Shown here: piece by piece, positions 2,425-12,761 of the stretch | Position numbering within the stretch: position 1 is the first letter of the stretch | How the letters are laid out: each line of letters opens with the position of its first letter | Source of the DNA: an uncultured Elusimicrobium sp. | GTDB lineage: Bacteria; Elusimicrobiota; Elusimicrobia; Elusimicrobiales; Elusimicrobiaceae | DNA length: 13,238 nt | NCBI GenBank assembly: GCA_946061795.1 | Contig: CAMGSK010000024.1 | Span: 1-13,238, forward strand | Reading direction: 5' to 3' | Program-made: the position numbers and the translations under genes | Notes under the pieces: generated by a model | Seen by the model: the letters and a program-made list of their open reading frames with translations, nothing else | What the model was told of the DNA's origin: nothing | The model's database searches: none

Positions 2425-3741
2425 ATGCTTTATTCCGTTCCTCCCGGGCAAAATGTGGAAATCACCGATGAATTTAAAGACGCGCTGGAGTTGTTGGAAA
2501 GTCCGGCCGCTCTTCGTCCGCTGATTTTTATTACGGGGAAAGCCGGCACCGGGAAAACCACTTTGCTCAAACTGTTTGCGCGCAATACGGTCAAAAACGC
2601 CGTCGTATTGGCCACGACGGGCATCGCCGCCGTGAACGTGGGCGGTCAAACGGTGCATTCCTTTTTTCGGTTAAAACCCGGCAATTTATTGGATTTGGAA
2701 AATTTAAAAAAGCTTCCCCGCCGGACCGCGGACGCCTTGGAAACCGTGATTATAGACGAGGCGTCCATGCTCCGGGCCGATTTGTTGGACGCCATGGACC
2801 ATATTTTGCGTCTTTCCACCGGGGAGGATGCGCCTTTCGGCGGCAAGCAGGTGGTGCTTTTTGGAGATTTGTTCCAACTGCCGCCGGTGGAGGAAGCCCC
2901 GTCCGGCGGTTTGTTTGATTATTTCCGCGCGGTATATGCCAGCCCTTATTTTTTTGATGCGCGCGTCGTTGCCCAAACAAAAATAGAAGTCTTTGAGTTA
3001 AACCGCATTTTCCGTCAGCGGGAGAATGACGGCTTTGCGCGTCTGCTCAACAAAATCCGCGAAAATGAAGCCTCCCAGGCGGAACTGGACGCTTTGCTCA
3101 ACGTACGTAAAAGCGAGCAAGAACCCGACGATTTGGACGGCGCCGTCATCCTCTCTCCTACCAACGAGGGCGCGGCTTGGCGCAACCAGGACCGGCTGGC
3201 CCGTTTGCCGGGAAAGGAGTTCGTTTATCCGGCCGTCGTGGACGAGACGTTTCAAAAGAAAGCCGTTCCCGCCGAACGCGCCCTGCACCTTAAGCGCGGC
3301 GCCAAAATCATGATGTTAAACAATGACGGAAACGGACAATGGGTCAACGGCGACATCGGCACGGTTTATGATTTGGGGGAAGATTTCATCAAAGTGGAAT
3401 TGAAGGGGGGAATTTACCGGGTGGAGCCGCACGTATGGGAAGATGTAAAATACGTGTTCAACCCGTTGTCGCAAAAACTGGAGCCGAAAGTGAACGGGTT
3501 TTTTAAGCAATATCCGCTCAAGCTGGCTTGGGCCATTACCATACACAAAAGCCAGGGGCTGACGTTTGATGAAATTTATTTGGATATAGGCCGCGGAGCG
3601 TTTGCTCCGGGGCAGACCTACGTGGCCCTGAGCCGCTGCCGTTCTTTGGAAGGCGTCCGTCTTAAAAAAGATATTACACTGCGTGACATCCGCTGTGACG
3701 CGCGCGTGGTTTCTTTCTTCCGCTCCATACGCGGTAAATAA
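2425..3741 (+). CDS. Pif1/RecD-like superfamily 1B DNA helicase
   Basis: The 438-residue protein carries an almost complete set of SF1B helicase motifs in order. These are Walker A GKAGTGKTT (38-46); motif Ia with ATTGIAA and a conserved H in GGQTVHSFF (about 63-81); Walker B VIIDEASM (108-115); motif III FGDLFQLPP (146-154); RIFRQRE (about 194-200), a conserved arginine region; motif V with TIHKSQGLTFDE (372-383); and motif VI YVALSRCRSLEGV (399-411). This is the Pif1 family pattern, a 5'-to-3' DNA-unwinding ATPase acting in recombination, replication restart or G-quadruplex resolution. It is near the minimal helicase core, with no large N- or C-terminal accessory domain. It stands alone as a single-gene unit ending in a strong terminator. 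The start is taken at the ATG just behind a TATAAT box; GTG at 2455 is the next in-frame option but would remove 10 residues and also lacks a ribosome site. Confidence 0.92.
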   Translation: MLYSVPPGQNVEITDEFKDALELLESPAALRPLIFITGKAGTGKTTLLKLFARNTVKNAVVLATTGIAAVNVGGQTVHSFFRLKPGNLLDLENLKKLPRRTADALETVIIDEASMLRADLLDAMDHILRLSTGEDAPFGGKQVVLFGDLFQLPPVEEAPSGGLFDYFRAVYASPYFFDARVVAQTKIEVFELNRIFRQRENDGFARLLNKIRENEASQAELDALLNVRKSEQEPDDLDGAVILSPTNEGAAWRNQDRLARLPGKEFVYPAVVDETFQKKAVPAERALHLKRGAKIMMLNNDGNGQWVNGDIGTVYDLGEDFIKVELKGGIYRVEPHVWEDVKYVFNPLSQKLEPKVNGFFKQYPLKLAWAITIHKSQGLTFDEIYLDIGRGAFAPGQTYVALSRCRSLEGVRLKKDITLRDIRCDARVVSFFRSIRGK

Positions 3742-3842
3742 TACACAGCGCTTTTCCGTAAACCGGTTTCCAGCCCGTGCCGTCACGCGGTAAAGAGATT
3801 TCTTTTTCTGTATTTTCTCTGAGGGAAAATACCAAAATATAA

Positions 3843-3870
3843 AAAACCCCGGATATTTGTCCGGGGTTTT
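3843..3870. terminator. Bidirectional intrinsic terminator
   Basis: Perfect 11-bp arms AAAACCCCGGA (3843-3853) and TCCGGGGTTTT (3860-3870) enclose a 6-nt loop. A-rich and T-rich flanks on opposite sides allow it to end both the helicase transcript and the converging nrd transcript. Confidence 0.92.
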
Positions 3871-3893
3871 ATCTTAAATTTTTATTTTTACGT

Positions 3894-4517
3894 TTACAAC
3901 TCTTCGTGCATGACTTTCAGCGCGGCTTTTTCTTTTGCGACGGGGAGACATTCCTGTACGCGGTAGCATTTGCCTTGTACGCTGTCAGATACCGCCTGAA
4001 TGTCCGCATCCGTTAAAACTTCTTTGTCATAGGTAGTGCGGAATTCATAGGGCAGTCCGCTTTGGCGGATAAGGTCCATGCTGCGCTGCAGAATGTTCGG
4101 GTCAAACGCCACGCCGGTAATGGACGGATACTTCTCCAGCGGAGCCTTTAGGTCCATGGCGATAAAATCCACCAGTTTTTGGTCAATCGCTTCTTGAATC
4201 ACGTCCGGCTTGGTGCCGTTTGTGTCCAATTTTATCAAGTAGCCCAAGGCTTTTATTTCCCGCATAAAGGGCAGCAGCCCTTCCTGCAGGGTGGGTTCTC
4301 CGCCGGTAATGACGACGCCTTCCAACGTGCCTTGCCGTCTGCGAAGAAAAGACAAAACTTCTTCTTTGGGCATGGAAGGCTGTAAAAGATGGGGGTAAAC
4401 CAATTCCGGATTATGACAGTACCGGCAGCGGAAATTGCAGCCTTGCGTGAACACCACGGCGGCCACCCGTCCCGGATAGTCAATCAGCGTGAATTTGATT
4501 AAACCCCCGATTTTCAT
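3894..4517 (-). CDS. nrdG: Anaerobic ribonucleoside-triphosphate reductase activating protein (radical SAM)
   Basis: This 207-residue radical-SAM enzyme has the cluster motif CNFRCRYC (Cys27, Cys31, Cys34), which holds a [4Fe-4S] cluster. The SAM-binding TGGEP follows at 71-75, and KLDTNG lies near 96-101. Its N-terminus, GGLIKFTLIDYPG, is typical of the NrdG-type activase that cleaves S-adenosylmethionine to put a glycyl radical on class III ribonucleotide reductase. It is the last gene of the locus, 21 nt after the separate glycyl-radical gene. No ribosome site is visible before its ATG, so translation is probably coupled to the small gene. The physical link supports the idea that its substrate is the 68-residue protein rather than the large chain. 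Pyruvate formate-lyase activases are related, but the neighbours favour NrdG. Confidence 0.93.
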   Translation of the reverse strand: MKIGGLIKFTLIDYPGRVAAVVFTQGCNFRCRYCHNPELVYPHLLQPSMPKEEVLSFLRRRQGTLEGVVITGGEPTLQEGLLPFMREIKALGYLIKLDTNGTKPDVIQEAIDQKLVDFIAMDLKAPLEKYPSITGVAFDPNILQRSMDLIRQSGLPYEFRTTYDKEVLTDADIQAVSDSVQGKCYRVQECLPVAKEKAALKVMHEEL

Positions 4518-4538
4518 AGCTTGGAAAAGAGGAGCGGA

Positions 4539-4745
4539 CTATTTGTCGCAGCCGCAGGAGCAGCCGACGTGCATGGTCTTTCTCATGGCAAATTCTTCTT
4601 TTTTGCCTTTGTTCCAGTTTTGCACCGGGCGGAGATACCCGACCACGCGGGAATACACTTCACATTTGGAACCGTGCACATCCTGCATTTCTTTTTTCAG
4701 TTCCGAGATTTTGTTTTCTACGATTTGTTTTTCTTCAGCGGTCAT
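4539..4745 (-). CDS. nrdD: Stand-alone glycyl-radical subunit of class III ribonucleotide reductase
   Basis: The 68-residue product contains what normally forms the C-terminus of NrdD: CEVYSRVVGYLRPV (28-41) then NWNKGKKEEF (43-52). Gly36 in RVVGY is the expected site of the radical made by NrdG. It is preceded by a charged helix whose V9, I13, L16, M20 and V23 follow a 4-3-4-3 heptad pattern, and followed by a cysteine-rich tail (CSCGC, 62-66) not usual in NrdD. It has its own strong ribosome site, AAGGAG (4753-4758), 7 nt before the ATG, and sits 129 nt after the large-chain stop, so it is an independent gene rather than a simple frameshift remnant. The role as a trans-acting radical carrier is inferred; the homology to the NrdD glycyl-radical segment is seen directly. 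Confidence 0.88.
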   Translation of the reverse strand: MTAEEKQIVENKISELKKEMQDVHGSKCEVYSRVVGYLRPVQNWNKGKKEEFAMRKTMHVGCSCGCDK

Positions 4746-4874
4746 GGTTGTTCTCCTTAATACTTCTGTACTTCTTGTCCGGCTGTCGCGCTTTTTATTT
4801 TATAATTTTTGGCGCGGAACCGAACCGCTTTTTAAAGATTAGACGGGCTAACCCTAAAAAGGGATATTCAGCAA

Positions 4875-6935
4875 TTATTTGCTGTAAAGCTGTTCTTCCA
4901 GCAGGCGTACCTGGCGTTCCAGTTCCTGCATGCGCTGGGCTTTGCATTTGGGGCATTCAAAATGTTCGCCTTCAATGTAGCCGCAGGTGGGGCAGACGCT
5001 GAACGTCGGCGTGATGGAGAAGTAGGGCAAGGTGTACTTTTCGCACACGGTCTTGATAAACTTCTTCATGGCTTGCAAATCTTTAATGCGCTCTCCGGTA
5101 AAAATATGCTGCACGGTGCCGCCGGTATATTTGGACTGGATGGTGCTTTGCAAATCCAGCATTTCAAACACGTCGTCGGTGTAGTTAACGGGCAGCTGGG
5201 ACGAGTTGGTGTAGAAAGGAGGATGCCCTTCTTTGTACGCGGATTCGTCGGCGCAGATGATGTCGGGATAATGTTCTTTGTCCAGTTTGGCCAAGCGGTA
5301 AGACGTGCCTTCGGCCGGCGTGGCTTCCAAATTGTAATTGTTGCCGGTTTCTTCCTGGAAGCGGACCAGGGTTTCGCGCATAAACGTCAGCGTTTTTTCC
5401 GCAAACGCTTTGCCTTTTTCCGTACCGATGTCTTCGCCGAGCAGGTTGACGGCCGCTTCGTTGAGTCCCACGAGTCCGATGGTGGAGAAGTGGTTTTTCC
5501 AATATTGGTTGAAGCGCTGTTTGGCGGTGCGCAGATAAAAACTCATGTACGGATAGAGGTTGGCCGCCGTGAAACGTTCAATTACTTTGCGTTTGATTTC
5601 CAAGCTTTCTTTGGCTGTTTCCATGCGGTCCAACAGGTTTTTGAAAAATTCATCTTCGTTTTTGGACAAATATCCCAAACGGGGCAGGTTGATGGTCACC
5701 ACGCCGATGGAGCCCGTCAGCGGGGCGGAGCCGAACAAACCGCCGCCGCGTTTGCGCAGTTCGCGGTTGTCAATGCGCAGACGGCAGCACATGGAGCGTG
5801 CGTCTTCGGGGTTCATGTCGGAATTGATGAAATTGGCGAAGTACGGAATGCCGTATTTGGCCGTCATTTCCCACAGCGGGGTAAGTTTGGGGTTGTCCCA
5901 ATCAAAATCTTTGGTAATGTTATACGTCGGAATGGGGAACGTAAACACGCGGCCTTTGGCGTCGCCGGCCAGCATGACTTCGCAGAACGCGCGGTTTAAG
6001 AGATCCATTTCGTTTTGGAACTCTTTATACGTTTTGTCCATCAGCTTTCCGCCGATGATGACGGGCTGGTCCTTATAATAAGACGGAACATTGAGGTCCA
6101 GCGTCAGGTTGGTAAACGGCGTTTGGAAACCCACGCGGGTGGGTACGTTGACGTTGAACAAAAATTCTTGCAGTGCCTGTTTGACTTCTTCGTAGGACAG
6201 TTTGTCGTAATAAATAAACGGCGCAAGCAGCGTGTCAAAATTGCTGAACGCCTGCGCGCCCGCACTTTCGCCCTGCAGCGTATAGAAGAAATTGACCACC
6301 TGGCCCAGCGCGGTGCGGAAGTGTTTGGCCGGTTTGCTTTCGGCCTTGCCCACGACTCCGGTAAAGCCGCTCAGCAGCAAATCCTGCAAATCCCAGCCCA
6401 CGCAGTACGCGCCCAAAAGGCCCAAATCGTGCAGGTGGATGTCTCCTTCGGAGTGCATGCGTTTTACTTTGTCGGGATAAATTTTGTTAAGCCAGTAAAT
6501 TTTGCTGATTTCAGACGAAATATAATTGTTCAGCCCCTGCAGCGAATAGCCCATGTTGCTGTTTTCGTTGACTTGCCAGTCCAGCTGTTTGAGGTATTGG
6601 TCCACCAAGTCCACGTTGAATTTGGAAGAAATTTCGCGGATGCGCGCGTGCTGGTCGCGATACAGGATGTAGGCTTTGGCCGTTTTGTGATAATTGGAGG
6701 TCAGCAGCACGTCTTCCACGATGTCCTGCACGTTTTCCACGTTGGGGGTGGTGTCTGCATAGAGCTGCTGGATGATGTTAATGGCGCGAATGGTCAGCTT
6801 TTTGGCGGTTTCGGCGTCAAACTCTCCCGTCACTTCGGCGGCTTTGGCGATGGCCTTGGTAATTTTTTTAGAATCAAAATGTTGGATAGAACCGTCTCTT
6901 TTGACGATGTTGGTGATTACTTCTGCGTTTTCCAT
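4875..6935 (-). CDS. nrdD: Anaerobic (class III) ribonucleoside-triphosphate reductase, catalytic chain lacking the glycyl-radical segment
   Basis: The 686-residue chain reduces ribonucleotides to deoxyribonucleotides for anaerobic DNA synthesis. An N-terminal ATP-cone (about 7-97, starting ITNIVKRDGS) gives allosteric control. The ten-stranded barrel core includes FTNLTLDLNVP (about 274-284), the tandem cysteines SMCCRL (Cys383/Cys384, one expected to be the thiyl-radical residue), GSIGVVTINLP (about 408-418) and GTSYRLAKLD (about 543-552). A zinc ribbon follows: Cys648, 651, 661 and 664 in a C-x2-C-x9-C-x2-C pattern. The chain stops 22 residues later, with no RxxGY radical site; that part is in the next gene. 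The start is the ATG at 6935, which has AGGA 9 nt upstream and begins the ATP-cone directly. An ATG 28 codons earlier adds a segment unlike the family. It is followed by the radical subunit and nrdG. Confidence 0.94.
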   Translation of the reverse strand: MENAEVITNIVKRDGSIQHFDSKKITKAIAKAAEVTGEFDAETAKKLTIRAINIIQQLYADTTPNVENVQDIVEDVLLTSNYHKTAKAYILYRDQHARIREISSKFNVDLVDQYLKQLDWQVNENSNMGYSLQGLNNYISSEISKIYWLNKIYPDKVKRMHSEGDIHLHDLGLLGAYCVGWDLQDLLLSGFTGVVGKAESKPAKHFRTALGQVVNFFYTLQGESAGAQAFSNFDTLLAPFIYYDKLSYEEVKQALQEFLFNVNVPTRVGFQTPFTNLTLDLNVPSYYKDQPVIIGGKLMDKTYKEFQNEMDLLNRAFCEVMLAGDAKGRVFTFPIPTYNITKDFDWDNPKLTPLWEMTAKYGIPYFANFINSDMNPEDARSMCCRLRIDNRELRKRGGGLFGSAPLTGSIGVVTINLPRLGYLSKNEDEFFKNLLDRMETAKESLEIKRKVIERFTAANLYPYMSFYLRTAKQRFNQYWKNHFSTIGLVGLNEAAVNLLGEDIGTEKGKAFAEKTLTFMRETLVRFQEETGNNYNLEATPAEGTSYRLAKLDKEHYPDIICADESAYKEGHPPFYTNSSQLPVNYTDDVFEMLDLQSTIQSKYTGGTVQHIFTGERIKDLQAMKKFIKTVCEKYTLPYFSITPTFSVCPTCGYIEGEHFECPKCKAQRMQELERQVRLLEEQLYSK

Positions 6936-10417: not shown

Positions 10418-11608
10418 ATGTCTGATATTTTTGAAAAATGCAGAAATTTCAAAGACGCCAAAATCGCCATGCGCATGGGTATTTACGGCTATTTCCAGCC
10501 GATTGAAAGCGCGCAGGGGCCGGAAGTGGTGCTCAATGGAAAGACCTATATCATGGCGGGATCCAACAACTATCTGGGGCTGGCTGATGATCCGGAAATG
10601 AAGAAAGCCGCCTCGGAAGCCGCTTTGAAATACGGCACAGGCTGTGCGGGTTCCCGGTTTTTAAACGGCAACACCAAAGCGCTGGACGCGCTGGAACAGC
10701 GCATCGCCCGCTTTAAACACAAACAAGCCGGTCTCGTCTTTTCCGCCGGATACCAGATGAATTTGGGGGTGGTGGGCTGCCTGCTGAAAAAAGGCGATTA
10801 CGCCATTGTGGATAAATTGGACCATGCCAGCATTTTGGACGGAGTAAAACTGTCCGAAGGGGAAATGGTGCGTTTTAAACACAACGACATGGCGGATTTG
10901 GAACGCGTTCTTTCCAAACTCCCCGAAGAAGCGGGCAAGCTGATTATTGTGGACGGCGTGTTCAGCATGGAAGGAGACATCGCCCCGCTGCCGGAAATCG
11001 TGAAAATCGGCAAAAAATACGGTGCGCGTATTATTGTTGACGACGCACACGCCACCGGCATCTTGGGCAAGACGGGCCGCGGCACCTGCGAGCATTTCGG
11101 CTTGGAAAACGGCGAAGTGGATTTGGTGGTGGGCACCTGCTCCAAAACTTTTGCCACCGTGGGCGGCTTTGTGGTGGGAGACGAAGACATCATCCACTAC
11201 ATCCGCCACAATGCGCGCAGTCAGATTTTTTCCGCCGCACTGCCGCCTGCTTCCGTCGCTTCCATCAACAAAGCGTTGGAACTGATTGAAAACGACACTT
11301 CCCGCCGGGACAATTTGTTCCGCATGACGGACAATTTGAAAAAAGGTTTGCGCGAACTGGGCTATGATTTGGGCAGCAGCACCACGCCGGTCATTCCCGT
11401 GCATGTGGGCAGCAATGAAAACTGCTTTAAAATGTGGCGTGCGCTGCACGAATTGGGTATTTTCTCCAATCCCGTCGTCAGCCCCGCCGTTCCCCCGGGC
11501 CGCGCGCTGATGCGTCTGACTCTGATGGCCACGCATACCGATGAACACGTCAAGAAAATTATTGACGCGTTTGCCAAGGCGGGCCGGGCCGTAGGCGTGA
11601 TTAAATAG
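10418..11608 (+). CDS. PLP-dependent alpha-oxoamine synthase, serine palmitoyltransferase-like
   Basis: The 396-residue enzyme belongs to the family that condenses an amino acid with an acyl-CoA: serine palmitoyltransferase, 2-amino-3-ketobutyrate CoA ligase, 8-amino-7-oxononanoate synthase. Visible family residues are NNYLGL (50-55), GSRFLNG (78-84), LDHASILDG with the PLP-stacking His136 (134-142), VDDAHATG with Asp208 and His211 (207-214), and the Schiff-base Lys243 in CSKTFATVGGF. The SKxxxTVGGF form, the GTGCAGSRFLNG loop and the N-terminus (FEKCRNF and a YFQPIES-like stretch) look more like bacterial serine palmitoyltransferase than like the ligase, whose signature is GKALGGASGG. No biotin genes are nearby. 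A good ribosome site (AAGGAAAAG) precedes the ATG, 22 nt after the adenylyltransferase. Family is certain; the exact substrate is inferred. Confidence 0.88.
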   Translation: MSDIFEKCRNFKDAKIAMRMGIYGYFQPIESAQGPEVVLNGKTYIMAGSNNYLGLADDPEMKKAASEAALKYGTGCAGSRFLNGNTKALDALEQRIARFKHKQAGLVFSAGYQMNLGVVGCLLKKGDYAIVDKLDHASILDGVKLSEGEMVRFKHNDMADLERVLSKLPEEAGKLIIVDGVFSMEGDIAPLPEIVKIGKKYGARIIVDDAHATGILGKTGRGTCEHFGLENGEVDLVVGTCSKTFATVGGFVVGDEDIIHYIRHNARSQIFSAALPPASVASINKALELIENDTSRRDNLFRMTDNLKKGLRELGYDLGSSTTPVIPVHVGSNENCFKMWRALHELGIFSNPVVSPAVPPGRALMRLTLMATHTDEHVKKIIDAFAKAGRAVGVIK

Positions 11609-11612
11609 TTTG

Positions 11613-11638
11613 AAAACCCCGCTGCGGCGGGGTTTTTT
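11613..11638 (+). terminator. Intrinsic terminator or attenuator between the oxoamine synthase and the GNAT gene
   Basis: Perfect 10-bp arms AAAACCCCGC (11613-11622) and GCGGGGTTTT (11627-11636) with loop TGCG and a run of six T residues. It begins 4 nt after the stop of the upstream gene and ends only 14 nt before the next ATG. Confidence 0.85.
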
Positions 11639-11651
11639 CTTTGGAGAAAAT

Positions 11652-12761
11652 ATGACGCAGATTATCATAAAAGACGCGGAAAACAATTTAAAAGAATTTG
11701 TAAATTTCTCGTATGATTTATATAAAAATGACCCGTATTGGACAGGGGAACTGAAGGCGGATACGCTCAAACTGCTTCACCCGAAAAACGCTTTCTGGAC
11801 GCATGCGCGGCGCAAGCTGCTACTGGCGTATAAAGACGGCGCCGTTGCGGGCAGAATTTGCGCTTTGGTAAACGACGTTTATAACCAATATCATCAAGAG
11901 AATATCGGTTTCTTCGGCTTTTTTGACTGCATAAATGATGAGGCTGTTTCCCGCGCTTTGTTTGCGGCGGCGGAAGCGTGGCTGAAAGAACAGGGTGTGA
12001 GCGCGGTGCGCGGGCCCGCCAACCCCTCGTCCAATCATATCTATGGACTGCTGACGGACAATTTTGACAAAATGCCCTCCATTATGATGCCTTATAATTT
12101 CCCTTATTATATGGAGCTGATTGAAAAGGCTGGTTTTTGCAAAGTAAAGGATTTGTTGGCTTTTGAACGGACGAGAGATGATAAATTTTCGCCTTTGTTT
12201 GAAAAAATCGTGGCCCGTGCGGCCCGCGGAAAAGGCCTGACGCTGAGGCGGCTGAACCTGAAAAATTTGAAGGAAGAAGCGAAGATTATCCGCAAAATTT
12301 ATAACGAAGCCTGGGCCGAAAACTGGGGCCACACCCCCATTTCTGAAGAAGAAATGCAGGATATGGTACAGGAGCTGAAGTGGGTGGTCCGCCCGGAAGG
12401 CACCTGCGTGGCGGAAGTGGACGGCGTTCCCGCCGGGTTTTACATCGCCATTCCCAACATGAACCACGTGTTAAAAATTCTGCACGGTACGTTGTGTCAC
12501 CCGCTGCGCACGCTGAAGGCGTTGGCCGTGTGGCGTAAAATCCGCGACGCGCGTCTGATTATGCTGGGCGTGGAGCCGGGCTACCGCAAACGCGGCATTG
12601 ATTTGGTGTTGATTAAACACATCGTGGAACACGGCGTCGCCGTGTGGGACTGGGCGGAATTGTCTTGGATTTTGGAGGACAATGAGCCGATTATCCGCGC
12701 CATGACCGAAGCCGGCTGTCGCCAAACCAAACGTTATCGGCTGTATCAGAAAAGTTTATAA
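11652..12761 (+). CDS. GNAT-fold N-acyltransferase-like protein
   Basis: This 369-residue protein begins with a family N-terminus (NDPYWTGEL, 26-34; HPKNAFWTHA, 43-52; AGRICALVND, 66-75). Its middle contains GFFGFFD (86-92), VRGPANPSSN (119-128), MMPYNFPYY (145-153), IYNEAWAENWG (216-226) and AGFYIAIPNMN (261-271). A GNAT acyl-CoA-binding motif follows, LGVEPGYRKRGI (305-316), then ELSWILEDN (346-354). I recognise this as a widespread uncharacterised GNAT-fold family. Bacterial ceramide synthase is reported to be a GNAT-type enzyme, so with the neighbouring serine-palmitoyltransferase-like gene an N-acyl transfer to a sphingoid base is a reasonable guess, not shown by the sequence. The start is the ATG at 11652, which has GGAG nearby; an earlier in-frame ATG lies upstream of the terminator hairpin and would translate through it. 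Confidence 0.82.
   Translation: MTQIIIKDAENNLKEFVNFSYDLYKNDPYWTGELKADTLKLLHPKNAFWTHARRKLLLAYKDGAVAGRICALVNDVYNQYHQENIGFFGFFDCINDEAVSRALFAAAEAWLKEQGVSAVRGPANPSSNHIYGLLTDNFDKMPSIMMPYNFPYYMELIEKAGFCKVKDLLAFERTRDDKFSPLFEKIVARAARGKGLTLRRLNLKNLKEEAKIIRKIYNEAWAENWGHTPISEEEMQDMVQELKWVVRPEGTCVAEVDGVPAGFYIAIPNMNHVLKILHGTLCHPLRTLKALAVWRKIRDARLIMLGVEPGYRKRGIDLVLIKHIVEHGVAVWDWAELSWILEDNEPIIRAMTEAGCRQTKRYRLYQKSL

Follow-up and report, generated by a model that had tools for sequence, protein, structure and literature searches.

We analyzed a stretch of 13,238 nucleotides (the window) that makes up one whole contig (CAMGSK010000024.1, C24 in our numbering) of the metagenome assembly of an uncultured Elusimicrobium sp. 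(GCA_946061795.1; 1.30 Mb, 159 contigs, 85.6% complete). On its minus strand, the gene for the class III ribonucleotide reductase NrdD ends before the glycyl-radical loop, and the loop is encoded by a small gene of its own, placed between the shortened nrdD (the body) and nrdG. From the comparisons below, we consider it highly probable that the locus encodes a working class III ribonucleotide reductase of two chains, with the radical loop as a separate subunit (the module). The wider pattern of a loop that is split off, re-fused, and also carried by viruses is a more interesting result than the locus itself.

The gene order along the minus strand is body (4875 to 6935), module (4539 to 4745), and nrdG (3894 to 4517). 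The body, of 686 residues, comprises an ATP-cone (PF03477), the class III reductase barrel, and a zinc ribbon, and it covers positions 1 to 539 of the 562 of the Pfam profile NRDD (PF13597) with 630.5 bits (cut-off, 26.2), as well as matching NF006126 with 1,040 bits. Its finger loop reads MCCR (residues 382 to 385) and thus contains, at Cys383/384, the thiyl-radical cysteine expected from the finger-loop motif that passages of PMC9669993 describe for class III enzymes. The zinc ribbon (CPTCGYIEGEHFECPKC, 4944 to 4994; Cys648, 651, 661, and 664) is kept on the body, which continues for only 22 residues after Cys664 before the stop codon and lacks an RxxGY motif anywhere in the chain. These last residues (KAQRMQELERQVRLLEEQLYSK, 4878 to 4943) form a C-terminal extension, predicted to be helical, that is missing in intact NrdD proteins.

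The module gene encodes 68 residues and is preceded by a ribosome-binding site, AAGGAG (4753 to 4758), 7 nt ahead of its ATG. Its product matches positions 531 to 560 of the NRDD profile, which is its sole Pfam match at E values of up to 0.1, and all five of its NCBIfam matches are NrdD models. The predicted radical glycine, Gly36 (codon at 4638 to 4640), lies in the motif RVVGY and aligns with RIVGY in two NrdD chains, 4coi and 4u3e, with weak E values (0.36 to 0.38) because the query is so short. Residues 2 to 25 (4671 to 4742) make up a helix-like N-terminal extension, also missing in intact NrdD, and the chain ends in a cysteine-rich tail, CSCGC (residues 62 to 66, 4548 to 4562); at least two cysteines are found in this tail in 67 of 74 relatives, while the Desulfurellales modules that we read do not have it. 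The nrdG gene starts 21 nt past the stop of the module and encodes a radical SAM activase of 207 residues with the motif CNFRCRYC (TIGR02495 NrdG2, 212.8 bits, cut-off 131.15; Pfam Radical_SAM). An initial annotation of this DNA had already described two chains of 686 and 68 residues 129 nt apart, the truncation 22 residues after the zinc ribbon, Gly36, the AAGGAG site, and the adjacent nrdG, and all the coordinates that we checked agree with it. One correction concerns the site of the cut: in Prevotella copri NrdD, according to the part of PMC11226230 available to us, zinc site, loop, and tail together form the glycyl radical domain (residues 676 to 739), and therefore the cut at this locus runs through that domain and leaves the zinc ribbon on the body.

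A search with the NRDD profile found three matches in the assembly to which the window belongs, namely, the body, the module, and a second module on contig C88 (1319 to 1480, 63 residues). Neither an intact NrdD nor a second NrdD body was found by this search in the 85.6% of the genome that is assembled, and there were zero matches to the large subunit of class I/II reductases (PF02867). The split locus, presented in the initial annotation as the only copy, is thus the only one as regards the body that we could find, but not as regards the module. The second module lies ca. 640 nt past an endolysin-like gene (phrog_465, E = 1.4e-30), with two small open reading frames (ORFs) between them, and is followed by an unidentified opposite-strand ORF and a DnaJ-family gene; the neighborhood looks like the edge of a prophage. 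Extra module copies of this sort, in family genomes and viral records alike, together with the conceptual likeness of the module to YfiD (PMC8683613, in the part available), would suit a different explanation, that the module is a mere GrcA-like repair part for NrdD cleaved by O2, with the truncated body not acting as the enzyme. We regard this as unlikely, since the assembly holds no full-length NrdD to be repaired and the body gene stops before the loop throughout the clade.

To a lesser extent still, the arrangement might be attributed to a decaying or misassembled nrdD, with a full-length NrdD elsewhere doing the work. The fragmented assembly speaks for this, as does a second, divergent NrdD in at least two genomes of the family; the distribution of the split speaks against it. 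Among 90 genomes of the family Elusimicrobiaceae, 87 have NRDD matches, and the module alone matches 85; in one of these (G070) the match is part of an intact NrdD, so that a separate module is present in 84. No module was found in G031, G069, G081, G082, and G089. Intact NrdD is present in G069 and G070, each from another genus of the family. Two paired modules (G019 and G088) have one stop listed within the matched stretch, and the G088 pair, when read, ends normally. Further modules (E ≤ 1e-15) appear at 25 places in 21 of the 90 genomes, five of them with one internal stop. The class I/II large subunit (PF02867) was not found in 74 of the 90 genomes, that of the window included; of the 51 genomes with completeness of 90% or more and contamination of 5% or less, 44 are among these 74. 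G089, the only good genome of the family lacking NrdD, has the class I/II enzyme. Like gene structure, conservation, and purifying selection, this distribution is a direct observation.

Outside the family, NRDD matches were found in 155 of the 247 genomes sampled from the phylum. Among the split-looking bodies retrieved, BLASTP located a module next to 23 of the 24 from family f12 and to all seven from family f7. In a scan of titled genomes (the best 80 of 440 loci, with a few genomes counted twice), 74 loci were split pairs, five were module only, and one was fused; the sources are Endomicrobium, Endomicrobiellum, Elusimicrobium, Avelusimicrobium, and other Elusimicrobiota, some entries named "uncultured bacterium," and three Desulfurellales. 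The split also occurs in the closed genome of an isolate, Endomicrobium proavitum (L078), whose chromosome of 1,588,979 bp was sequenced with PacBio (PMC4505116). Of 19 genomes in the order to which the Desulfurellales genome G335 belongs, 17 have NRDD matches, 13 split and four intact. A protein search with the module of the window recovered 757 short proteins.

The module gene is under purifying selection. Between the module of the window and nine relatives, nonsynonymous divergence (dN) was 0.044 to 0.101 and synonymous divergence (dS) 0.45 to 1.02, and across 54 modules the pooled ratio of nonsynonymous to synonymous differences (pN/pS; the pairs are not independent) was 0.30 for the helix part, against 0.14 for the loop. 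Conservation across genomes, together with the variety of gaps and frames described below, led us to reject decay or assembly error, to which we assign very little probability. The initial annotation had suggested looking for an intact NrdD elsewhere in the genome and surveying homologs for the same gene order, and both searches bear out its view of a split class III reductase, as do the conservation of the two-gene state in the family and beyond, the separate start and Shine-Dalgarno-like string of the module, the selection on it, and the 74 family genomes in which the class I/II large subunit was not found. Helix-like ends, wide distribution, a re-fused relative, a second type of cut NrdD, and viral modules go beyond what it described.

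Joining of the two ORFs into one chain at the RNA or protein level, by an intron, intein, frameshift, or read-through, was also considered. Introns and inteins often interrupt phage nrdD genes (parts of PMC3653736 and PMC12363816), and in the window the two pieces are in the same frame. However, five in-frame stops (TAA and TAG, that of the body included) separate the pieces, which are 129 nt apart (4746 to 4874), so no single error joins body and module, as had been claimed. In the 74 titled pairs, gap length ranges between -4 and 284 nt with a median of 127, and all three relative frames are used (28, 22, and 24 pairs). Shine-Dalgarno-like strings precede the chosen start in 70 of the 74 modules, versus 7.6% of 3,700 random 14-base windows from the same loci; with a stricter pattern, the figures were 66 of 74 and 1.3%. 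No Rfam family, introns included, reached its gathering score in the whole window, the gap is too short to hold an endonuclease gene, and both ends carry residues absent from intact NrdD, so that we hold a joined product to be very improbable. Equally hard to credit is that the body, having no radical glycine of its own, works in a way that dispenses with glycyl-radical chemistry while the module serves another protein, given that the module retains RxxGY, that its matches to NrdD models lie at their C-terminal end, that nrdG is adjacent, and that a natural re-fusion unites body and module.

How two chains could do the work of one is suggested by the joint. In a survey of 120 homologs of at least 600 residues, 23 were without the RxxGY motif, and in all 97 intact homologs that have it the distance from the last zinc cysteine to the loop is of a single length. 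The main split clade has added ca. 20 helix-like residues to each cut end, which intact NrdD proteins do not have. These ends agree in register between Endomicrobia and Desulfurellales, since none of 2,000 column shuffles reached the observed score and sliding one against the other lowered it, a control that leaves room for convergence of two amphipathic helices. We propose that the two helix-like stretches, at the C terminus of the body and the N terminus of the module, probably pair as a two-helix splint. Three Desulfurellales entries (G345, G347, and G349), which seemed to be long frames containing both body and module, had been taken as a possible one-chain intermediate with a helical hairpin; on reading, each has a stop and a separate module.

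The history of the split was examined with trees built from bodies trimmed at the zinc ribbon. In a quick version, 64 sequences required five changes of state. For a more careful tree, two Desulfurellales were added and 45 of the resulting 66 sequences used, leaving out 21 (the long branches L037 and L128 and 19 thinned from dense groups). Here, the splits of Elusimicrobiaceae and Endomicrobia form one group (support, 100/98) that includes the fused gene of "Ca. Endomicrobiellum siamense" (L165), which clusters with two split neighbors at 100/100. Because a constraint placing the splits in one clade without this gene was rejected (approximately unbiased [AU] test, P = 6e-6), it is best read as a re-fusion; its joint has neither helix. 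With a fused gene nested among split ones, pieces and whole look interchangeable in evolution. The Desulfurellales bodies fall outside the Elusimicrobiota split group (one clade rejected, AU test, P = 0.003), and the f7 splits, which are helix-less, lie far outside the main split group. Altogether, the careful tree requires four changes of state, three of them forced by well-supported branches. An independent origin of the Desulfurellales split, favored by the body trees, was not adopted, since the helix ends match in register and one origin followed by transfer or re-fusion is therefore just as likely. Re-fusion and transfer both mimic fission, and so the tree does not fix the number of fissions.

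A second type of cut NrdD is found in Elusimicrobium minutum (G067, contig C1, L005), which has, along with an ordinary split NrdD, a divergent one (24% identical) that is likewise cut after the zinc ribbon. Its module, of 49 residues and starting MENNKLNKNGQGVGFERIRRITGYLVG, is Emin_1053 of E. minutum Pei191, annotated as "hypothetical protein." A search with this second type of module (RIRRITGY) recovered 2,911 short proteins, which may include ORFs cut by contig ends; Oscillospiraceae and Clostridia bacteria are among the source names of the best 120. Free-standing glycyl-radical modules of this type are thus far more numerous than those of the first.

Modules of both types are also present in viral records. 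For the first type, three scans gave 62 distinct records, 61 with an NRDD match and one without, and in 60 of the 61 the module was the sole kind of match. Among these 60, there are stops inside the match in G275, G308, and G309 (one each) and in G310 (eight), the last of which is probably not a gene; the module match of the viral record G334 is below the family cut-off. A 7,575-base IMG/VR contig (G283/L037) has, at 3210 to 6425, a module gene ahead of a gene for a loop-less NrdD body, in reversed order, and this body frame, of 1,029 residues, contains between its two NRDD matches a large insert that is possibly an intein. For the second type, 80 of 245 loci were kept, and these records comprise 65 with a module only (eight below the cut-off and two with one internal stop), 10 in which module and remaining NrdD share a single frame, and five with a body and a separate module; in one of these five (G403), the module is again ahead of the body. 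Since viral records may be fragments or hold host DNA, a record with a module only is not proof of a virus carrying the module alone. ANMV-1 virus, an annotated phage, carries a 435-bp gene of the module kind (8 kb of 38 kb viewed). In a phage isolate, Eggerthella phage EL753P1 (L340), the nrdD, of 952 residues, ends after the zinc ribbon, and a downstream module (4923 to 5131) is broken by a change of frame.

Orphan modules were 64 to 78% identical to their best host module. In a tree of module sequences, which are too short for a firm result, 11 of 15 orphans grouped together without host modules (support, 0.77). That all of them are phage genes was not borne out by the seven contexts examined: endolysin or KilA-N genes are close by in three (C88, L107, and L108), only weak matches to tail proteins were found in L115 and L181, and there was no phage gene among the two neighbors searched in L111. 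In the seventh (L137, Elusimicrobiota bacterium), the orphan module (4001 to 4183) stands between the genes of a phosphoenolpyruvate-utilizing enzyme and a cobalamin-independent methionine synthase, which is no phage setting. In Elusimicrobiaceae, the modules at likely prophage edges have an N-terminal helix like that of host modules, as would be expected if they docked on the host body, and they group loosely with modules of free viral contigs.

We infer from these sequences the pairing of the chains, the installation of the radical in trans, and turnover. Body and Gly36 subunit would be made separately from one gene cluster; their helix-like ends would pair, forming a splint in place of the peptide bond at a joint of fixed length; NrdG would install the radical on Gly36 of the module in trans; and the loop would enter the barrel close to Cys383/384, the place taken in an ordinary NrdD by the covalent C terminus. 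A likely consequence is that a radical loop damaged by O2 could be exchanged while the body is kept, and the extra module genes of prophages could supply the same part. We give about even chances to a broader proposal, in which the radical loop is an exchangeable, horizontally traded subunit, freed more than once by bacteria, commonly borne by phages, and plugged into a host body that is split or has been opened by oxygen, thereby driving or rescuing deoxynucleoside triphosphate synthesis during infection, which would make these modules the first spare parts known for any glycyl radical enzyme outside pyruvate formate-lyase (PFL).

Several observations weigh against the two-chain enzyme as set out here. 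Most of the genomes surveyed are metagenome assemblies, and an intact NrdD could sit in the missing part of the assembly of the window, given its completeness and fragmentation. Within the family, G031 has a body for which no module was found, body and module are on separate contigs in G027 and G054, and the additional divergent NrdD is intact in G020 and split in G067; in family f12, BLASTP found no module beside the body in the L083 stretch. As for the splint, the heptad scores are plain counts without a control, that of the L188 module helix being only 0.5, and within the module evolution is faster in the helix part than in the loop. Moreover, helices are absent in the f7 splits, the second E. 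minutum NrdD, and many viral modules, and are therefore not required for every separate module.

Should the proposal hold, a class III radical placed on a separate small protein would recall the separate radical subunit of class I reductases, and in the 74 family genomes with no class I/II large subunit found, the loop supplied in trans would be essential. A separable radical subunit of 68 residues would ease electron paramagnetic resonance, nuclear magnetic resonance, and titration studies of radical installation by NrdG. The locus, the second copy in the same genome, and the viral modules make the question of spare parts outside PFL a testable one, and cultured isolates exist.

Elsewhere in the window (10418 to 12761, plus strand), a gene of the class I/II aminotransferase fold (PF00155) is followed by a GNAT-family gene, a pair that gave us the impression of belonging to a lipid pathway.

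In the literature searched, which covered few subscription journals and many sources in part, we found no description of an NrdD with its radical loop encoded by a separate gene, and the portions available of PMC9669993, PMC9531940, PMC4390871, and PMC3019208 do not mention one. Compared with class III enzymes of solved structure (8p23, 9d3x, 4coi, 4u3e, and 1h78), the locus has the same ATP-cone, NRDD barrel, MCCR finger loop, four-cysteine zinc ribbon, RxxGY motif, and adjacent nrdG. In that class, the enzyme stores the radical on one of its own glycines (excerpts of the review PMC4390871), and its glycyl radical domain flips outward to encounter NrdG (excerpts of PMC12662201). Unlike in those enzymes, where the radical glycine is in the C terminus of the same chain, here it is on a chain of 68 residues, the loop is the product of a separate gene, and helix-like additions flank the cut on both sides.

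Split reductase genes are also known from phages, as indicated by the parts of PMC3653736 and PMC12363816 that we could consult: nrdA in two genes, which is functional, and the nrdD of phages phiAS4, 949, and Jug, interrupted by an intron, an intein, or in an unexplained way. The likeness is that of a reductase gene in pieces. While the phage cuts are accompanied by homing endonucleases, introns, or inteins, or have no known cause, the cut described here isolates one functional element and is conserved in whole bacterial families, with helix-like ends in Elusimicrobiaceae, Endomicrobia, and Desulfurellales. The class II reductase of Pseudomonas aeruginosa is reportedly split in two chains as well, and is said to depend on B12 and to involve no glycyl radical.

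The closest parallel in mechanism is with YfiD/GrcA of Escherichia coli and Y06I of phage T4, in which a small free-standing glycyl-radical protein serves a loop-less body. According to the part of PMC8683613 available, PFL functions with its radical loop given in trans by YfiD, and these two, both for PFL, are the only validated spare parts, with others considered possible for other glycyl radical enzymes; the T4 frame ORF vs.6 has a Gly_radical match (PMC1524935, in part). The comparison with GrcA made in the initial annotation thus holds for mechanism but not for ancestry: the module, though a small stand-alone glycyl-radical protein too, has no match to PFL models, those of the PFL C terminus included, and matches NrdD models instead. 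Nor does it coexist with a complete enzyme in its own assembly, where no intact NrdD was found. Unlike YfiD, the module of the host cluster would permanently accompany a body in which the loop is never present, rather than being a part kept for repair.

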